64,000 bases of DNA from NCBI RefSeq assembly GCF_015831355.1, contig NZ_JADWYR010000001.1:2170001-2234000 (forward strand), written 5' to 3'. Positions 3,932 through 61,536 of this stretch are shown one piece after another. The notes beneath the pieces are model-generated. The model had not been told where the DNA came from, searched no databases, and saw only the letters and a list, made by a program, of their open reading frames with translations. Source of the stretch: Panacibacter microcysteis. Lineage in GTDB: Bacteria > Bacteroidota > Bacteroidia > Chitinophagales > Chitinophagaceae. How positions within the stretch are numbered: position 1 is the stretch's first letter; every line of letters begins with the position of its first letter. The translations under genes and the position numbers were made by a program.

Positions 3932-3986
3932 GCACAAGAGTGCGACGCAACGTACGTTTAATAGCAGCAATGCAGCCGGGCTCATA
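3932..3986 (+). repeat. Family A repeat copy 3 (GCGACGC form)
   Basis: Core GCACAAGAGTGCGACGCAAC at 3932-3951, then a spacer with TTAATAGCAGCAATGCA and the end GCCGGGCTCAT. It sits in the divergent gap between the MutS-like gene and tmRNA. Confidence 0.9.
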
Positions 3987-4037: not shown

Positions 4038-4411
4038 GGGGCTGTATTGGTTTTGACAGCATAGGTTACGGTAGGTGTAAGCATGCAGTGCGTTGTATCA
4101 TTAGCACTTAAATCTGAAGATTCAAACATTAAATGGCAATACTCAGTATGCCATGGCTGCCTAATCAGTGATTAGTTAGTCATTAGGGCCGCGTTGAGCC
4201 GGTTGTTCTGTTGCCACGCTCCGCCGCCGACTCAAAAAACAAATACAGAATGCTGTAATGGAAGGCTGTGACCATTGCAAAAGACTATGCAGCTAAGCGC
4301 AGGGTCGGTTTGTTCATTTCCTGCTTTGTGCCGACAAATAATAATGGAATAAGCATGTAGAAAGCTTATGGTAATTGTGTTTGGACAGGGGTTCGAGTCC
4401 CCTCAGCTCCA
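4038..4411 (+). ncRNA. ssrA: Transfer-messenger RNA (tmRNA)
   Basis: The 5' end GGGGCUG pairs with the 3' CAGCUCC to form the acceptor stem. The 3' end carries a T-arm with GGTTCGAGTCC, and position 4411 is the discriminator A; CCA is not encoded (CTA follows). The tag reading frame is at 4135-4161 and ends at TAA 4162-4164. Reading from the GGC resume codon gives GNTQYAMAA. It rescues stalled ribosomes with SmpB and tags products for proteolysis. The rest folds as pseudoknot domains that I did not model. A terminator follows directly. Confidence 0.95.
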
Positions 4412-4413
4412 CT

Positions 4414-4447
4414 AAAGCCACCATTGACAAACAATGGCGGCTTTTTT
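4414..4447 (+). terminator. tmRNA terminator
   Basis: Stem AAAGCC-CCATTG / CAATGG-GGCTTT with a one-base bulge on each side, followed by a run of T. It begins immediately after the mature tmRNA end. Confidence 0.88.
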
Positions 4448-13034: not shown

Positions 13035-13089
13035 TTATGTAGCCAACTGCAGTGCTACTATCATCGCCTGTTGTGTCACTCACTTGTAC
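13035..13089 (-). repeat. Family A repeat copy 6 (GTGTCAC form)
   Basis: Core GTTGTGTCACTCACTTGTAC at 13070-13089, preceded by TGCTACTATCATCGCCT and followed by GGTTGGCTCATTATGCAGCA. It lies beside the tandem array. Confidence 0.92.
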
Positions 13090-13176
13090 GGTTGGCTCAT
13101 TATGCAGCATGGGTGCTGGCTTGCTGCGTTTCAGCAAATAGTTTTGGTGCTGGCAATAAGCATGCTTTGTTGTTAT

Positions 13177-14033
13177 GCATCTGCGGCTTCAAAAGTTGCA
13201 GTTGCCTCAGCACGATGCGGAGTAGCAGTTAAGTTGATTGGGCCAGGAATATTTCACATTTACCGTTTCACGTCTCACGATTCAGGATTCACCATTCACG
13301 CATCTGCGGCTTCAAAAGTTGCAGTTGCCTCAGCACGATGCGGAGTAGCAGTTAAGTTGATTGGAACAGGAATATTTCACGTTTACCGTTTCACGTCTCA
13401 CGATTCAGGATTCACCATTCACGCATCTGCGGCTTCAACAGTTGCAGTTGCCTCACCACGATGCGGAGTAGCAGTTAAGTTGATTGGAACAGGAATATTT
13501 CACGTTTACCGTTTCACGTCTCACGATTCACCATTCACCATTCATGCTTCTTCGAACAGTTGCAGTTGCCTCACCACGATGAGGAGTAGCAGTTAAGTTG
13601 ATTGGACCAGGAAAATTTCACGTTTACCATTTCACGTCCCACGATTCACCATTCACGCTTTTGCGGCTTCAAAAGTTGCAGTTGCATCAGCACGATGCGG
13701 AGTAGCAGTTAAGTTGATTGGAACAGGAATATTTCACGTTTACCGTTTCACGTCTCACGATTCAGGATTCATCATCCACGCTTCTGCGGCTTCAACAGTT
13801 GCAGTTGCCTCACCACGATACGGAGTAGCAGTTAAGTTGATCGGACCAGGAAAATTTCACGTTTACCATTTCACGTCCCACGATTCACCATTCACGCATC
13901 TTCGGCTTCAACAGTTGCAGTTGCCTCACCACGATGCGGAGTAGCAGTTAAGTTGATTGGACCAGGAATATTTCACGTTTACCGTTTCACGTCTCACGAT
14001 TCAGGTTCACCATTGACCATTCACCATTCACCC
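13177..14033. repeat. Seven-unit tandem array built from family B repeats
   Basis: Units begin at 13177, 13300, 13423, 13545, 13657, 13780 and 13896, so lengths are 123, 123, 122, 112, 123, 116 and about 138 with the tail. Each unit starts GCWTCTGCGGCTTCAAMAGT, contains CACGATGCGGAGTAGCAGTT and TTGATTGG, and ends in a simple stretch of TTCACGTCTCACGATTCACC type. Differences between units are mostly single bases plus trimming of the simple stretch. Single dispersed relatives occur at 17981, 18438, 18541 and 51155. The array fills most of the 1,055-bp gap between the DUF5009-like gene and murA. Confidence 0.95.
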
Positions 14034-16255: not shown

Positions 16256-17644
16256 TTATTCAATCACCAGTTTTTGACTGTGGCTTTCTGTGCCTTCCAC
16301 AACCCTTACCACATAAACTCCTTTTGCAATCCCTGAAGTATTGATCGTGTGCGAACCGGCACCATTGAGATTTTGCCTGTAAACGATATTGCCTGCAAAG
16401 TTTACAATAGCAAGTGCGGCCTTTTCTGAATTGGTTTTTACCACGCAATAAGTGCGTGCAGGATTTGGTTGAAGCGTAACCTGTAACACTTTACCTGTTA
16501 TACTCAGCGTGATGATCCTGCTTTCAGTATGTTTTCCATCCTTATCAAACATCTGCAGTTTGTAGTAAATCTTGTCAGCTTTTACGGCAGCAATGTCATC
16601 TGCGAACCGGTAAGTGTTTTTGGCTGCACTTCCATTATTTAGGGCGTTAACATTACCAACGGCTGTAAAGTTGCTGCCATTGCTGCTGCGCAGCACAACA
16701 AAATGAGAAGTATTGATCTCGCTTGTAGTTTGCCACTGCAACGCTACCGTGTTGTGGTTTTTTGTTCCGGTAAAATTTACCAATGTAAGCGGCAGTGTAC
16801 AACCTGTATAAGAGAAAGTAAACCTTGAATCGTTTACCCATGCGTTGCTAAGCCAGTCCTGCGAAACATTTTCAGCTATTGTACCATCGCCGTTGTAAGT
16901 AAAATCTGTTTGTGCATCATTGATCCACGCACTACCTGTCCAGTCCTGTATCAGCTCTTTGGTTAAATTGTTACCGGTGTAAGTACTTTTTGTAAGTGCA
17001 TCGTGTACCCACGCAATCGCATTCCAGGAATCCATTGTATCTGTCACCTGGTGTTTGTTTACATCGTAGGTATAACGGTTTCTTGCCTGGTTTGTCCAGC
17101 TAACAAATGACCATCCTTCCGTAACCATTTCTTTTACTGTTTTGTCTGCATTATAGGTATATGTTTGGCGGGAAAAATCTGTCCAGTCTGTAATAAACCA
17201 GAGCTTTGTTGTTACGGTTTGCAACGTAAGATCCGGGTTGTATCCGTACACTGATAAATAAGTATTTTGAAAAGTGGTGCCGAGTGGTGCGTTTTCCGTT
17301 AGCATGCTATCCATCTGGTCATTTTCATTGTAACTGTAGGTAATTCGTAGCAGGTTTTTCCATGCTCCGCCCGTCCAGCTTTGTGTTACCGATTGTGCCA
17401 GCTTTTTTGTTGCAGTATAGGTATTTGTTGTCAAAGATGCATTCACCCACTGAGAAGTACCTGCCGCCAGGTTTTGGGTTAAAACTGTTGCTGCCTGGCA
17501 TTGGGCGTTATTGGTATAAATGCTTCGCATAAACGGTTGCCACGCATTGTTTTTCCATTCATAAGCCAGGGTTGTATCCAGCGCCTGGGATTGTGCATTA
17601 AATACAATTGAAAGCAGCAGCAGAAGAGATAAAATTTTTTTCAT
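16256..17644 (-). CDS. Type IX secretion system sorting-domain protein with repeated W-x-N motifs
   Basis: 462 residues. A signal peptide (to about residue 21, ending NAQSQA) is followed by about seven imperfect repeats of 35-40 residues. Each repeat has the pattern W-x-x-x-x-x-x-T/F-Y-x-Y-N with W-T/V-N before it, to about residue 280. A fibronectin-like segment (TLVNFTGTKNHNTVALQWQTTSEIN) follows. The C-terminal type A sorting domain has VTLQPNPARTYCVV and IAKGVYVVRV, ending QKLVIE. Secreted or attached to the surface by the type IX system. No enzymatic motif is seen; it may bind carbohydrate or serve as an adhesin. The neighbouring pseudogene is a relative. Confidence 0.88.
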   Translation of the reverse strand: MKKILSLLLLLSIVFNAQSQALDTTLAYEWKNNAWQPFMRSIYTNNAQCQAATVLTQNLAAGTSQWVNASLTTNTYTATKKLAQSVTQSWTGGAWKNLLRITYSYNENDQMDSMLTENAPLGTTFQNTYLSVYGYNPDLTLQTVTTKLWFITDWTDFSRQTYTYNADKTVKEMVTEGWSFVSWTNQARNRYTYDVNKHQVTDTMDSWNAIAWVHDALTKSTYTGNNLTKELIQDWTGSAWINDAQTDFTYNGDGTIAENVSQDWLSNAWVNDSRFTFSYTGCTLPLTLVNFTGTKNHNTVALQWQTTSEINTSHFVVLRSSNGSNFTAVGNVNALNNGSAAKNTYRFADDIAAVKADKIYYKLQMFDKDGKHTESRIITLSITGKVLQVTLQPNPARTYCVVKTNSEKAALAIVNFAGNIVYRQNLNGAGSHTINTSGIAKGVYVVRVVEGTESHSQKLVIE

Positions 17645-17831
17645 AAACGGTGTTTTTGTGTTTGATCTGTGTATAACAAATAATCATTGGCCGCTCCTGG
17701 CGGTTAATAATTTTAAAGGTAGCAGCAACCGGAAAGTTGGTATGGCCGGGCCGGGTTAACAGTGCTTTTCGTTGTATGAATTGTAGAAAATAGGTAGTAA
17801 ATGTTTGCTGGTTTTTTTGCAAAAGCATTTT

Positions 17832-17886
17832 TTGGTTGACGGGCTGCATTACTACTATCATCGCCTGTTGTGTCACTCACTTGTAC
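17832..17886 (-). repeat. Family A repeat copy 7 (GTGTCAC form)
   Basis: Core at 17867-17886, preceded by GGGCTGCATTACTACTATCA. It is the left boundary of an 0.9-kb gene-free composite module closed by copy 8. Confidence 0.92.
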
Positions 17887-17980
17887 GGCTGGTTCTTTAT
17901 GCAGCAAGGGTGCGGCCCTGCTGCATTTCAGCAAATAGTGTTGTTCGGGCAATACATGTGCTTCGTTGCAAACAGTGATA

Positions 17981-18038
17981 CTTTGGCTTCAGCAGCAGTA
18001 GTTGCATCTACACGATACAGAATAGCAGTCTTGTTTAT
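17981..18038 (+). repeat. Family B repeat, single copy
   Basis: CTTTGGCTTCAGCAGCAGTA, then GTTGCATCTACACGATACAG and AATAGCAGTCTTGTT. It aligns with the tandem-array unit at 13177. The following bases (18038-18085, GTAAAGTTCGATTTTGTTGC) match 51013-51035. Confidence 0.8.
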
Positions 18039-18265
18039 TTTATGGAAAGTAAAGTTCGATTTTGTTGCGGCTTTAGCCGGCCTCGGAAAAATGGCGTGAA
18101 GAAATTTATGTAATGCAGCGTTAAGCAGCGAAGATGATGCGTAATGTTCAAATGCAATTTATATGTCTTCGTTCAATAGCTATTCTACTGTTACATGTAT
18201 AACTTCTTCGCTGTAGCGTAATGCAGTAAATTTTAGCCGATTTTTCCGCAGCCTTGATCTTTTTT

Positions 18266-18298
18266 GTTACTTTTTTGCATCAAGGCAAAAAAGTAAAC
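18266..18298. repeat. Long perfect hairpin inside the composite module
   Basis: GTTACTTTTTTGC / GCAAAAAAGTAAAC around loop ATCAAG. Neither side resembles a usual terminator, because the stem itself is the T-rich part. It lies between two family B copies, in a 400-bp stretch where I see nothing else. Confidence 0.6.
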
Positions 18299-18437
18299 AC
18301 GCTGCTGGTGAAGACAAAGGTTTGGTTCTTCAAAGTTGTTTCCTGTTCTTTTGTACTGACACAAAAAAAACAAAAAGCCAGGTAAGAAAAGATGTACAGC
18401 CCTTTTCCTGCTTTCGCCTTGATGAAGGTTTTATGCT

Positions 18438-18535
18438 ACTTTGGCTTCAGCAGCAGTAGTTGCATGAACACGATGCAGAATTGCAATTACGTGGCTGAAC
18501 AAGAATATCTCACGATTCACGTCTCACGTTTCACG
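18438..18535 (+). repeat. Family B repeat with simple-sequence tail
   Basis: ACTTTGGCTTCAGCAGCAGT, then TTGCATGAACACGATGCAGA, followed by CTCACGATTCACGTCTCACG-type simple repeats like those ending the array units at 13.2-14.0 kb. Confidence 0.8.
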
Positions 18536-18540
18536 CGTCC

Positions 18541-18670
18541 TTTGGCTTCAGCAACGGTAGTTGCATCTACACAATACAGAATAGCAGTCTTGTTAATTGA
18601 ACAATGAGCATTTTCACGTCTCCTGTTTGCCGTTTCACGTCTCCCGCTTCACCATTCACCATCCCCGCCC
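18541..18670 (+). repeat. Family B repeat with simple-sequence tail
   Basis: TTTGGCTTCAGCAACGGTAG, then TTGCATCTACACAATACAGA and AATAGCAGTCTTGTT, followed by TTTCACGTCTCCCGCTTCAC-type repeats. It is adjacent to copy 8 of family A. Confidence 0.8.
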
Positions 18671-18700
18671 ATGATCGCTGCAGCTGCATATTGTTATGCT

Positions 18701-18755
18701 GTACAAGAGTGCGACGCAACCAAAGCTTCATGCTTAGGCAAAAGCCGGGTACATC
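18701..18755 (+). repeat. Family A repeat copy 8 (GCGACGC form)
   Basis: A near-consensus copy: GTACAAGAGTGCGACGCAAC at 18701-18720, then CAAAGCTTCATGC and AAAAGCCGGGTACAT. It ends two bases from the DUF423 stop codon and is the right boundary of the composite module. Confidence 0.95.
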
Positions 18756-18756
18756 A

Positions 18757-19143
18757 TTAACTCTTCCACACTGCAACGGCTATGCAAACCCAGCCGGCAA
18801 TAAAGCATAAACCCCCGATGGGTGTAATGGCGCCAAGCCATTTCATGCTTTCGTTGCCTGCTACCAGGAAAGCTGTTAACAGGTAGAGTGAACCTGAAAA
18901 TAATACGGTGCCTGCTATAAACATGCGGCCACTCCAAAGTAGCCACGTGGCATTGAAGAATTGAAATAGAATGGCTACAGCAAGTAACGCAAATACATGG
19001 TAAAACTGGTATTTAACGGCGGTTTCGAAAATGCCCAGGGTATAATCGTTTGCTTTTGCTTTTAAACCGTGTGCGCCAAATGCGCCCAGCGCCACTGCCA
19101 GTGCGCCAAGCAGCGCAGCAGTAATAAGAAATGATTTATGCAT
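18757..19143 (-). CDS. DUF423 membrane protein (YgdD-like)
   Basis: 128 residues with four hydrophobic helices. The N-terminal ALLGALAVALGAFGAHGLK is the DUF423 hallmark, followed by ETAVKYQFYHVFALLAVAIL and a C-terminal ITPIGGLCFIAGW. Small inner-membrane protein of unknown function, conserved across bacteria. Its start overlaps the 3' end of aroK by eight bases, so the pair is co-transcribed. Length and motifs fit the family closely. Confidence 0.92.
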   Translation of the reverse strand: MHKSFLITAALLGALAVALGAFGAHGLKAKANDYTLGIFETAVKYQFYHVFALLAVAILFQFFNATWLLWSGRMFIAGTVLFSGSLYLLTAFLVAGNESMKWLGAITPIGGLCFIAGWVCIAVAVWKS

Positions 19144-31986: not shown

Positions 31987-32041
31987 GTACAAGTGAGTGA
32001 CACAACAAAAGCCCAATAGTAGCAATGCCGCCGGCACAATA
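31987..32041 (+). repeat. Family A repeat copy 12 (GTGACAC form)
   Basis: Core GTACAAGTGAGTGACACAAC at 31987-32006, then AATAGTAGCAATGCCGCCGGCACA. Unusually, it and copy 13 point away from each other instead of facing. Confidence 0.93.
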
Positions 32042-32052
32042 AAAAACATAAT

Positions 32053-32107
32053 GATGTACCCGGCATTTGAACAATAATGAAACTTTCGTTGCGTCGCACT
32101 CTTCAAC
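32053..32107 (-). repeat. Family A repeat copy 13 (GCGACGC form)
   Basis: GATGTACCCGGCATT, then core GTTGCGTCGCACTCTTCAAC at 32088-32107, the last bases diverging from CTTGTAC. It lies 12 bases after copy 12, between tamB and tamL. Confidence 0.9.
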
Positions 32108-50989: not shown

Positions 50990-51314
50990 ACCGCTGTTTA
51001 TTCTCCGGGAAATAAAGTTCAGCTTTGTTGCCGCCAGGCGCTTATTTCTACGAAGTTGTTTACTGTACCATTTTCTTGAAAAAAAGTATTAAAGTTCAGG
51101 CACAGTGATCTTACGACACATCTGTGCACACGCCCTGATGAGGCTTTTATGCTATTGTGGCTTCAGCAATGGTAGTTGCGTCAACACGATGCTTAACAGC
51201 AGGTTTGTTATTTGAACAGCATTCTACTCACGTCTTTCGTTTCACCTCTCACGTTTCACGTCTCACGATTCACGTCTCACCTCTCACGATTGACCATTCA
51301 CCATTCACCATCAC
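50990..51314 (+). repeat. Right half of a composite A-B-A module, with family B copy
   Basis: 50990-51040 matches 18030-18085 (GTTTATT ... AAAGTTCAGCTTTGTTGC). A family B core follows at 51155-51210 (ATTGTGGCTTCAGCAATGGT, GTTGCGTCAACACGATGC). Then come TTTCACGTCTCACGATTCAC-type simple repeats to about 51314, and a C-rich run. This accounts for most of the 529-bp gap; the left A arm is missing. Confidence 0.75.
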
Positions 51315-51375
51315 CCCCCCCTCCCGCACAACCGTTGCGCGGCCCGTGCCCGGCGCAGCTGAGTAAAGCTTTGCT

Positions 51376-51430
51376 GCACAAGAGTGCGACGCAACAGGTG
51401 CCAAATGCCTGTTCTGCAGCCGGGTACATA
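51376..51430 (+). repeat. Family A repeat copy 21 (GCGACGC form)
   Basis: GCACAAGAGTGCGACGCAAC at 51376-51395, ending GCAGCCGGGTACAT. It is the right end of the composite module and lies upstream of the deoxyhypusine-synthase-like gene. Confidence 0.95.
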
Positions 51431-58197: not shown

Positions 58198-61100
58198 ATG
58201 GCAAATGAACCTAAAAAAGGGTTGCAGTTTAATCGCCGTTTTACTGCAGACGATAAGAGCCCTTTTGATCTGTTTGAGTATGACTACCGCACCAGCGTTA
58301 TCCGCAATCCTAACGGTGAGGTAGTGTTTGAGATGAATAATGTAGAGGTACCCAAACAATGGAGCCAGATTGCCACGGACATTATTGCACAAAAGTATTT
58401 TCGTAAAGCGGGTGTGCCACAGCCAGACGGTTCACTTGGCCGGGAAACATCGGCAAAACAGGTTGCCCACCGTATGGCAAACTGCTGGCGCGTATGGGGT
58501 GAGCGCTATGGTTATTTTGCTTCTGCAAACGATGCACAGGTTTTTTACGATGAGCTGGTGTACAGTATTCTTAACCAGTCCTGCGTGCCTAACAGTCCTC
58601 AGTGGTTCAATACCGGTTTACACGAGAGTTACGGCATTACCGGTAAACCCCAGGGGCACTACTATGTAGACCCTGTAGATGGAGAACTAAAAAAATCAAG
58701 AAATGCATACGAGCGCCCACAGCCGCATGCATGCTTTATCTTAAGCGTAAGCGATGATCTTGTGAACGATGGCGGTATCATGGATCTGTGGGTTCGTGAG
58801 GCACGCATTTTTAAATATGGCTCTGGTGTTGGTACCAACTTCTCACAAATCCGCGGCGAAGGAGAGAAGCTGAGCGGTGGCGGCACATCGAGTGGTTTAA
58901 TGAGCTTTCTGAAAATAGGCGACCGCGCAGCGGGCGCCATCAAAAGTGGTGGTACTACAAGACGTGCCGCTAAAATGGTTTGTCTTGATCTTGACCATCC
59001 TGAGATCATGAAATTCATTAACTGGAAAGTAGAAGAAGAAAAAAAAGTAGGCGCACTCATTGCAGCAGGTTACGACAGCCACTACGAAGGTGAGGCTTAC
59101 ATGACCGTAGCAGGACAAAACTCCAACAACTCTGTACGTATACCCAATTCTTTCTTTGAAGTATTGGAGAAAGATGGCGACTGGGAACTGAAAGCAAGAA
59201 CAGATGGCCGGGTAATGAAAAAAGTTCCGGCACGCGAAGTGTGGAACCAGATTGCTTATGCAGCGTGGCGCTGTGCTGACCCCGGTACACAGTATGATAC
59301 AACCATCAACGAATGGCATACCTGCCCGCAGGGTGGCCGCATCAATGCGTCTAACCCATGTTCAGAATACATGTTCCTGGACAATACGGCATGTAACCTG
59401 GCAAGTGCCAACCTCATGAAGTTCTTTGATACAGACAGAAACCTGCTGGATGTGGAAGGTTTTGAATATACCTGCCGCCTGTGGACAGTGGTACTCGAAA
59501 TTTCGGTATTGATGGCGCAATTCCCGTCCCAGGAAGTTGCACAGCTTTCTTACGATTACAGAACATTGGGTCTTGGTTTTGCAAACCTTGGTACAGTGCT
59601 TATGGTAAGCGGTATTCCTTACGATAGCGAGGCCGCACGTGGTATCGCCGGTGCCGTTACCGCTATCATGACAGGTATTGCTTACAAAACATCTGCAGAG
59701 CTGGCAGGCATACTCGGGCCCTTTGCCAAATACAACGAGAACAAAAACGATATGCTGCGTGTAATGCGCAACCACCGCGCCGCAGCTTATGATGCAAACG
59801 AAGCATACGAAGGCCTTAGCGTAAAACCTGTAGGTATAGACGCAAAATATTGCCCTGATTATTTATTAAAAGCTGCAACAAAAGCGTGGGATGATGCTGT
59901 ACAGCTTGGTGAAAAATATGGTTACCGCAATGCACAAACAACCGTCATTGCACCTACAGGAACAATCGGTCTGGTAATGGATTGCGACACTACAGGCGTT
60001 GAGCCGGATTTCGCTTTGGTTAAATTCAAAAAACTCGCAGGTGGCGGTTACTTCAAGATCATTAACCAGAGCGTACCGGTAGCATTGAGAAACCTGGGCT
60101 ATAAAGAAAATGAAATCGATTCTATCATTAAATATGCTGTGGGTGCAGGTAGTTTTGAAGGTGCTCCTTTCATCAACCCGCAAACGTTAAGCGAGAAAGG
60201 TTTTATTGCAGATGAAATCAAGAAACTGAATGAGGCCGCTAAATCGGCTTTTGAAATTGGATTTGTGTTTAACAAATTTGCACTCGGCGAAAGCTGCCTG
60301 GAAAGACTCGGCTTTACTGCAGCACAATACAACGACTGGAACTTTAACCTGCTCGAAGCGTTGGGCTTTACAGATGATCAGGTAGATGCAGCTAATGACT
60401 ATGTATGTGGTACCATGACTGTAGAAGGTGCACCATACCTGAAGAACGAACATTTACCGGTATTTGACTGTGCCAATAAATGTGGTAAGAAAGGCGAAAG
60501 ATTTATTCATGCGCATGGCCACATTAAAATGATGGGTGCATGCCAGCCGTTCCTGAGCGGTGCTATTTCCAAAACCATTAACCTGCCACATGAAGCATCT
60601 GTAGAAGAAATAGCAGACTGCTACATGCTTAGCTGGAAGCTTGGTCTGAAGGCAAATGCATTATACCGCGATGGTTCAAAACTTTCTCAGCCGCTGAGCA
60701 ACAAATCAGACAAGAAGAAAAAAACAGAAGAAACAAAAGAAGAAGAAAAAGTTGCAGAAGCAACGGCACCTGAATCTCACATTGTAGATTTAAGCAAGCT
60801 TACCGTAGAAGACCTGCTCGATGAAATGCATAAACGTATGCAGGCAAGTAACGATACCAATCTTAAACGTGAGCTCTCCAAGATCGTTGAGCGTAAGAAA
60901 CTGCCGGCCAAACGCCGTGGTTTTACACAAAAAGCAAAGATTGGTGGCCAGGTATTGTTCCTGCGCACCGGTGAGTACAACGATGGTACCATTGGCGAAA
61001 TCTTTATCGATCTTGCCAAAGAAGGTTCTACGCTGCGCAGCCTCATGAACTGTTTTGCCATTGCTGTTTCAGTTGGCCTGCAATATGGTGTGCCGCTGGA

Positions 61101-61536
61101 AGAGTTTGTAGAAAAATTTGTCTTCACCAAGTTTGAACCTGCAGGTATGGTAGACCACCCGAACATTAAGACAACAACATCGCTGGTAGACTTTGTGTTC
61201 CGTGCGCTGGCTTACGAATACCTTGGCAGAACAGATCTTGTACATGTAATAGACAGGCCTGAAATCGGTAATACCGGTGAAGAAGATGGCAGCGAGGTTA
61301 CGCTTATTGGTAAACCAGATTTAAGCAATGTACGCGTTGCCGCACCGGCATCACAACCGGTACGTACACAAAAAGCTACAGCCGTAAGAGCAGAAGTTGG
61401 TCTCGATGCCGTAAATGCAGCAGCAAAAAATATGCAGAGTGATGCACCGGCCTGTAACGTATGCGGTCATATTACCTTACGCAGCGGTACCTGCTACAAG
61501 TGTTTGAATTGTGGCAACAGCATGGGTTGCAGCTAA
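58198..61536 (+). CDS. nrdJ: Adenosylcobalamin-dependent (class II) ribonucleotide reductase
   Basis: 1,112 residues. Reduces ribonucleotides to deoxyribonucleotides with a B12-generated thiyl radical. Landmarks: NSPQWFNTGLHESYG, PHACFILSVSDD (first active cysteine), NASNPCSEYMFLDNTACNLASANL (NxCxE motif) and VIAPTGTIGLVMDCDTTGVEPD. A Lys/Glu-rich linker lies near 840-860. A TSCPD-type domain follows (LRTGEYNDGTIGEIFIDL ... LRSLMNCFAIAVSVGLQYG). The C-terminus is a cysteine cluster (CNVCGH, CYKCLNCG, GCS) for re-reduction or zinc. No intein. No cobalamin riboswitch was recognised upstream; DnaA-like boxes are present there. Confidence 0.95.
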   Translation: MANEPKKGLQFNRRFTADDKSPFDLFEYDYRTSVIRNPNGEVVFEMNNVEVPKQWSQIATDIIAQKYFRKAGVPQPDGSLGRETSAKQVAHRMANCWRVWGERYGYFASANDAQVFYDELVYSILNQSCVPNSPQWFNTGLHESYGITGKPQGHYYVDPVDGELKKSRNAYERPQPHACFILSVSDDLVNDGGIMDLWVREARIFKYGSGVGTNFSQIRGEGEKLSGGGTSSGLMSFLKIGDRAAGAIKSGGTTRRAAKMVCLDLDHPEIMKFINWKVEEEKKVGALIAAGYDSHYEGEAYMTVAGQNSNNSVRIPNSFFEVLEKDGDWELKARTDGRVMKKVPAREVWNQIAYAAWRCADPGTQYDTTINEWHTCPQGGRINASNPCSEYMFLDNTACNLASANLMKFFDTDRNLLDVEGFEYTCRLWTVVLEISVLMAQFPSQEVAQLSYDYRTLGLGFANLGTVLMVSGIPYDSEAARGIAGAVTAIMTGIAYKTSAELAGILGPFAKYNENKNDMLRVMRNHRAAAYDANEAYEGLSVKPVGIDAKYCPDYLLKAATKAWDDAVQLGEKYGYRNAQTTVIAPTGTIGLVMDCDTTGVEPDFALVKFKKLAGGGYFKIINQSVPVALRNLGYKENEIDSIIKYAVGAGSFEGAPFINPQTLSEKGFIADEIKKLNEAAKSAFEIGFVFNKFALGESCLERLGFTAAQYNDWNFNLLEALGFTDDQVDAANDYVCGTMTVEGAPYLKNEHLPVFDCANKCGKKGERFIHAHGHIKMMGACQPFLSGAISKTINLPHEASVEEIADCYMLSWKLGLKANALYRDGSKLSQPLSNKSDKKKKTEETKEEEKVAEATAPESHIVDLSKLTVEDLLDEMHKRMQASNDTNLKRELSKIVERKKLPAKRRGFTQKAKIGGQVLFLRTGEYNDGTIGEIFIDLAKEGSTLRSLMNCFAIAVSVGLQYGVPLEEFVEKFVFTKFEPAGMVDHPNIKTTTSLVDFVFRALAYEYLGRTDLVHVIDRPEIGNTGEEDGSEVTLIGKPDLSNVRVAAPASQPVRTQKATAVRAEVGLDAVNAAAKNMQSDAPACNVCGHITLRSGTCYKCLNCGNSMGCS

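Follow-up and report, generated by a model that had tools for sequence, protein, structure and literature searches.

The window analysed here, a stretch of 64,000 nucleotides, corresponds to C1:2170001-2234000 of the 5.2-Mb source genome (G000, 11 contigs). In simple longest-ORF calls, the longest open reading frame touching the gap at 17832-18755 (gap 1) has 92 amino acids. The gap starts with an arm of a repeat termed A, whose core occurs in two forms, GTACAAGAGTGCGACGCAAC (A1) and GTACAAGTGAGTGACACAAC (A2). This left boundary arm is an A2 (17830-17912, minus strand; core at 17867-17886) and turns its outer end toward the gene 16256-17644, for which a protein search gave only weak matches to the C-terminal part and no synteny. 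Segment L follows (17887-17978, plus strand) and is common to the repeat islands described below; the TATGCAGCA flank after the A2 core carries a TGCAGCAAGGG/CCCTGCTGCA hairpin at 17900-17925, and the fold of 17887-17960 had a z-score of -2.57, with 4 of 200 shuffles equally good. The first copy of B, a 60-bp repeat, lies at 17979-18037 (plus), a AAAGTTCGATTTTGTTGC segment at about 18052-18069, and a left flank of the element C, shared with an island at C1:2284.6k, at 18048-18078 (plus). C itself (18079-18295, plus), dispersed and structured, consists of 217 bp forming a long imperfect hairpin and then a T-rich tail hairpin (18253-18295, plus). A copy of the element D in reverse orientation (18349-18448, minus) adjoins the second B copy (18437-18492, plus), which has a heptamer tail H (18503-18535, plus), as has the third (18540-18597, plus; tail 18613-18659, plus). 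The right boundary arm is an A1 (18675-18757, plus; core at 18701-18720), the outer end of which touches the stop codon of the gene 18757-19143 (minus). Every piece was thus found where the sequence-only reading had placed it. The perfect T-rich hairpin claimed at 18266-18298 is the tail of C, and its fold was confirmed (18260-18300, z -4.67, none of 200 shuffles as good). Rfam recognized a tmRNA and two tRNAs as the only families in the window, and for 17800-18800 five weak matches far under the gathering scores.

Two further gaps of the window had been proposed to share the plan of gap 1. Gap 2 (50990-51430) was said to repeat the right part of the order and indeed holds a D copy (51071-51164, minus), a B copy (51154-51210, plus), a heptamer tail (51227-51315, plus) and an A1 core (51376-51395, plus), the latter having a counterpart at the corresponding gene start in a second species of the genus (G001), the one congener compared (79 versus 82 nt). 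Gap 3 (13035-14033), described as an A arm followed by amplified B, has an A2 core (13070-13089, minus) and then seven tandem B-H units (13177-14014, plus; period 123 bp, 7.0 copies, 88 % matches), the last of which ends some 28 bp away from the stop codon of aroA. Pairwise blastn comparison with the low-complexity filter off gave best E-values of 4e-22 (gaps 1 and 2), 8e-40 (1 and 3) and 4e-19 (2 and 3). The heptamer tails are of low complexity and could make unrelated AT-rich spacers look alike; such a chance likeness is nevertheless exceedingly improbable. The E-values rule out short chance matches as the source of the shared segments, A1 occurs at 892 places in G000 (genome-wide, at most three mismatches) versus none for a reversed-pattern control, and a B model had 28 hits in 464 kb of G000, chosen partly to include islands, and none in 340 kb of G001. 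This B model found nothing either in 40 kb of G005, in further stretches of G001 or in 80 loci of relatives.

Islands of this kind follow the order A2-L-D'-B-H-A1, complete or partial, with one reading direction. The fill L-D'-B-H, again complete or partial, was present at 16 places in the 464 kb, 15 with a B-model hit and one, at C1:2284.6k, with a truncated B, no B-model hit and an A2 upstream, which stayed outside the polarity count. When features less than 700 bp apart were clustered, an A copy stood upstream of B in 11 of the 15 B-hit islands (9 A2, 2 A1; 4 islands without) and downstream in 8 (all A1, no A2; 7 islands without), a significant polarity (Fisher p 7e-4); the island at C2:1537.8k had neither copy. 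Five islands have both A copies, four of them with A2 upstream and A1 downstream, and they span 345 to 981 bp, cores included. Thus the idea of one plan held insofar as the order recurs with fixed polarity, and was not supported insofar as it meant a defined element of about 0.9 kb with A as its ends. The length is not fixed, and the interior is not a single element: at least three other repeat families make it up, and two of them, C and D, are found in G001 without B. D, about 105 bp long, immediately precedes B and points the other way, and all 10 D copies of about 90 nt or more in G000 adjoin B. The fill varies in size because B-H units are tandemly duplicated, with longer tandem units at C1:1031.4k (three), and because C sits in some islands. 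Decay to different extents, as had been suggested, therefore accounts for a part of the variation, to which tandem gain, the carriage of C and breaks in gene order contribute as well. For L the search scored at most 40 candidates per genome, so that its copy numbers are lower bounds.

The A repeat is by far not confined to the islands. At up to four mismatches 152 copies (82 A1, 70 A2) were found in the 464 kb, which scales to an estimated total of about 1,700 in the genome; as a check on the scaling, the sample predicts 887 A1 at three mismatches or fewer versus the 892 counted. Core positions 4-18 of A1 are 99-100 % constant save position 7 (A or T) in the 82 copies, which were found by that very core. 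Degenerate blocks flank it at about -20 (TGC.GaataAag) and from +43 to +57 (GCCGGGtaCAtAAAA), and the information content extends from about -26 to +57, giving a repeat of about 85 bp. A structured RNA was considered and rejected: the consensus has no stem longer than 3 bp on either strand, and 76 of the 152 copies, folded singly, behaved like shuffles (mean z -0.09, 5 % under -2). A coding function was rejected since the core, inspected by eye, is without third-codon-position variation. Between ORFs of at least 110 amino acids lay 134 of the 152 copies. Where two neighbouring A copies had their cores within 1.5 kb of each other (44 pairs), the arrangement was '-+' in 35 cases, '+-' in 7 and '++' in 2, thus the outer ends mostly point apart, toward genes. 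One pair in the rare '+-' order, at 31987-32107, has a counterpart in G001 that matches it in place and in core forms, and four pairs in G001 have exactly 24 nt between the cores (C1:2441546, 3809722, 3890685 and 3893229). Of the copies that face a stop codon, 32 of 78 in G000 and 45 of 90 in G001 have their core at a distance of 35-49 nt from it, and a second group stands at 80-94 nt (15 and 14 copies); in several of the latter a terminator hairpin with a T-run was seen by eye between stop codon and A. A further copy, at 3932, is situated just upstream of the tmRNA gene (4038-4414). From the invariant core, the missing RNA fold and the placement we infer that A is most likely a DNA site recognized by a chromosomal protein where transcription units end.

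The position of A is partly kept between the two species. For 40 orthologous genes, A was present at the 5' end in both species in 7 cases, in G000 only in 2, in G001 only in 3 and in neither in 28 (p 2e-4); the values for 3' ends were 7, 5, 8 and 20 (p 0.09). At 12 of the 14 ends that share an A the core form is the same, and the flanks of these shared copies have mostly diverged. These patterns indicate that A is old, with turnover. At two mismatches or fewer, A1 was detected in 12 of 39 genomes, the source included, with 1 to 1475 copies and the most in G001. Both species have an A about 100 nt past the stop codon of the ribonucleotide reductase (58198-61536), whose best matches among relatives were UBA7600 (89 %) and Limnovirga soli (86 %), both Chitinophagaceae, the family in which the source genome is placed on this basis. 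Among the loci of relatives, the best 80 of 553, three share this reductase-end A (UBA7600, Limnovirga soli and UBA4407) and 16 have any A-like site. REPINs driven by a RAYT transposase were rejected as a source of A: the domain PF01797 (Y1_Tnp, RAYT-type) has two matches in G000 and none in G001, the genome with most A copies, which speaks against a RAYT-driven element. A search of plasmids gave no match. Within 2.9 million viral contigs the exact A1 core occurred in 5 stretches and the exact A2 core in 10, which are possibly host flanks of proviruses.

Inverted A copies on both sides of five islands, together with the fixed polarity, resemble a non-autonomous MITE-like transposon that would measure about 0.4-0.5 kb in an intact copy, have A2 and A1 for its long terminal inverted repeats and be moved by a transposase acting in trans; the 0.9-kb copy would then carry a nested C and extra B. 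The single-B islands, whose cores enclose spans of 345 and 410 bp, would suit this size, and the A2 arms of islands are alike over their whole length: among 11,476 A pairs, the seven most alike all join A2 arms of islands. This likeness outside the core counts against our own reading, developed below, as it is not predicted by A2 copies that strictly pre-existed. We nonetheless consider the transposon unlikely. Arms of A stand without fill or B at many gene ends, in places common to both species, the outer parts of the A1 arms differ by eye between islands, and no target-site duplication was noticed when the flanks were inspected by eye. A search for empty sites in related strains had been proposed as a check; one gap without fill was found in G001, in which both A copies are kept, and this speaks against A as the element's own end. 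In this gap (G001 3612937-3613203) the order is gene Y, A1, 102 bp, A2, gene X, with Y and X as divergent neighbours; the models for B, C and D had no hit there, L and H were absent by eye. Its spacer between A1 and A2 is made up of short GAGCTAT/AGCTCAT-like repeats. The contrast in fill fits either a gain in G000 or a loss in G001.

In G000 the same genes X and Y are found with A2 and an island, and with A1 and an island, respectively, 21 kb apart, and the two islands are oppositely oriented. Such a layout would result from one inversion between two islands; the second junction of such an inversion had no match in the G001 stretches examined. Gene order was compared more generally with 72 reciprocal best matches, asking at each gene end whether either of the two nearest ORFs in G000 had a homologue among the two nearest in G001. 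A homologous neighbour was kept at none of 7 island-facing ends versus 87 of 121 other ends (p 2e-4), where the choice of G001 stretches by similarity raises conserved order among the controls and both ends of one gap may count, so that control ends are not independent. For other gaps of at least 300 bp the share was 10 of 16 (p 0.007 versus islands) and, with A, 9 of 11. The seven ends represent seven islands (C1:955.3k, 958.7k, 976.9k and 1820k, gap 1, gap 3 and C2:1537.8k); at C1:1031.4k and gap 2, outside the uniform test, the neighbours differ in G001 too. Against gaps of at least 300 bp the contrast is modest, and the test is exploratory.

Taken together, we regard it as probable, with moderate confidence, that the 0.9 kb represent a rearrangement-prone island of repeats between gene-end repeats and not one mobile element. 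The order, its recurrence, the tandem copies and the contrast of filled and unfilled gaps are observations; a spread of the fill and a role in recombination are inferred from them. Recombination or gene conversion via the A2-L side and the heptamer tails may carry the fill from one A-bounded gap to another, and slippage or unequal exchange within the heptamer tracts may enlarge it. Filled islands would offer homologous substrate for chromosome rearrangements and would in consequence end up at breaks of gene order, and an island would need no protein of its own. What appears as a single decayed element can thus be a stack of independent repeat families between gene-end marks, and the gaps studied here give a concrete case in which stacks of this kind are found where the gene order has changed.

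Among the components of the fill, C shows strong covariation. An alignment of 13 C copies has standard pairs in 97.5 % of the pair cells, and 53 cells changed on both sides versus 14.7 in shuffles (none of 500 as high; slid versions reached at most 8). Over the tail as a whole, two-sided changes were counted in 17 cells, against 5.1 in shuffles. The loop of the tail can pair with an upstream CTTGAT, as in gap 1, or CTTGAC in the manner of an H-type pseudoknot; this helix is 98.7 % paired, with covariation in one of six pairs (6 of 13 sequences). Since only one of six helix pairs covaries, the pseudoknot is likely, not proven. A strict search for the tail recovered 21 in the DNA examined and none in reversed sequence; D shares this tail. 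With a covariance model, scoring at most 60 candidates per genome, at least 3 full copies of C were detected in G000 and at least 11 in G001, and weaker matches in eight other genomes, five of them from other families of the order; the matches in G014 are short and may be the tail only. C has no Rfam match and may represent a new family of structured non-coding elements.

All 10 scorable copies of C in G001 follow a gene of their own orientation, one copy inside a predicted ORF being omitted, and so do 9 of 9 distant loci outside ORFs. If two loci overlapping a predicted ORF are added, the latter become 11 of 11; three distant loci were omitted from the count, two that lie within a predicted ORF and one that has no ORF upstream, and several copies are close together or near-duplicates, thus the counts are not independent. 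Covariation and orientation would be expected if the island as a whole were a functional unit, e.g., a transcribed regulatory RNA or a terminator or insulator built from C, D and A. This we judge quite improbable, because only one of three C copies in G000 is co-oriented with its upstream gene, the D copy of gap 1 folds no better than shuffles (z 0.23 and -0.74), and number and content of the units vary freely. The B pattern, sought genome-wide at up to three mismatches, occurs 14 times in G000 and, at three mismatches, once each in 6 of 38 relatives (G001 and five others), with no match for the control. The covariation of the long hairpin could also come from the correction of DNA palindromes. 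A repeat island between gene-end repeats remains our preferred reading.

The repeats belong to a known kind, the dispersed intergenic repeats; none of the families tested, however, equals A in its combination of traits or C in its structure. REP elements are defined in PMC12306157 as extragenic, present in many copies, with a common consensus and a palindromic stem-loop, and short, e.g., 14-40 nt in E. coli. By this definition A agrees in being extragenic, numerous and of common consensus, and differs in having neither the stem-loop nor the shortness. Like the REP/BIME sequences of enterobacteria and Pseudomonas, A is short, extragenic, very abundant, paired in inverse orientation and often situated after stop codons, but it is about 85 bp long, forms no stem-loop and has two core forms that are mostly kept at shared orthologous ends. 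The REPIN/RAYT system comprises a RAYT-type Y1 transposase in the genome, which G001, by its lack of PF01797, does not offer for A. Correia, ERIC and RUP elements are MITE-like small intergenic repeats. C resembles MITEs and these elements in a length of a few hundred bases, hairpin formation and several dispersed copies per genome, whereas it ends in a likely H-type pseudoknot and lies mostly downstream of co-oriented genes; neither a transposase nor a target duplication was identified for C. With A as the terminal repeat, the inverted ends of a MITE are there, and the one empty site has retained both terminal repeats. DNA uptake sequences, the DUS of Neisseria and the USS of Pasteurellaceae, have a short over-represented core in coding and non-coding DNA. 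A is similar in that its short core is invariant, copies occur about once per 3 kb and inverted pairs stand at gene ends; it is different in that nearly all copies are intergenic and conserved blocks flank the core over its full length of about 85 bp. For the repeats themselves no Rfam family was reached at the gathering score. Literature searches with the strings of the A cores, the heptamers and the C and D hairpins gave no match in the papers searched, and searches on repeats in Chitinophagaceae or Bacteroidetes and on uptake signals, at the level of titles and abstract openings, found nothing on these repeats.

A broader interpretation is advanced tentatively, as a possibility rather short of an even chance. 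A may be a gene-end punctuation mark across part of the Chitinophagaceae, with a putative protein reader acting as roadblock, insulator or nucleoid organiser; islands would accumulate and recombine between such marks, and C, with D linked by the tail, would be an undescribed, order-wide family of hairpin plus pseudoknot. This putative mark is an 85-bp, three-block, non-hairpin sequence with a near-invariant core of 15-16 bp in two discrete forms, which turns one side to the neighbouring gene and is kept at many orthologous gene ends while the flanks drift. A is uncommonly numerous and long-lasting for a sequence without a hairpin, and the existence of two core forms turns the putative reader protein into a direct experimental question. 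As for the tandem arrays, the B-H units of gap 3 are like minisatellites in their seven head-to-tail copies, but such units also occur scattered among many loci, with A as their frame. The H tracts, at 51227-51315 and elsewhere, are seven-base repeats of the type TCAC[GC]NN, and similar tracts were seen in other genera (G014, G017 and G022).
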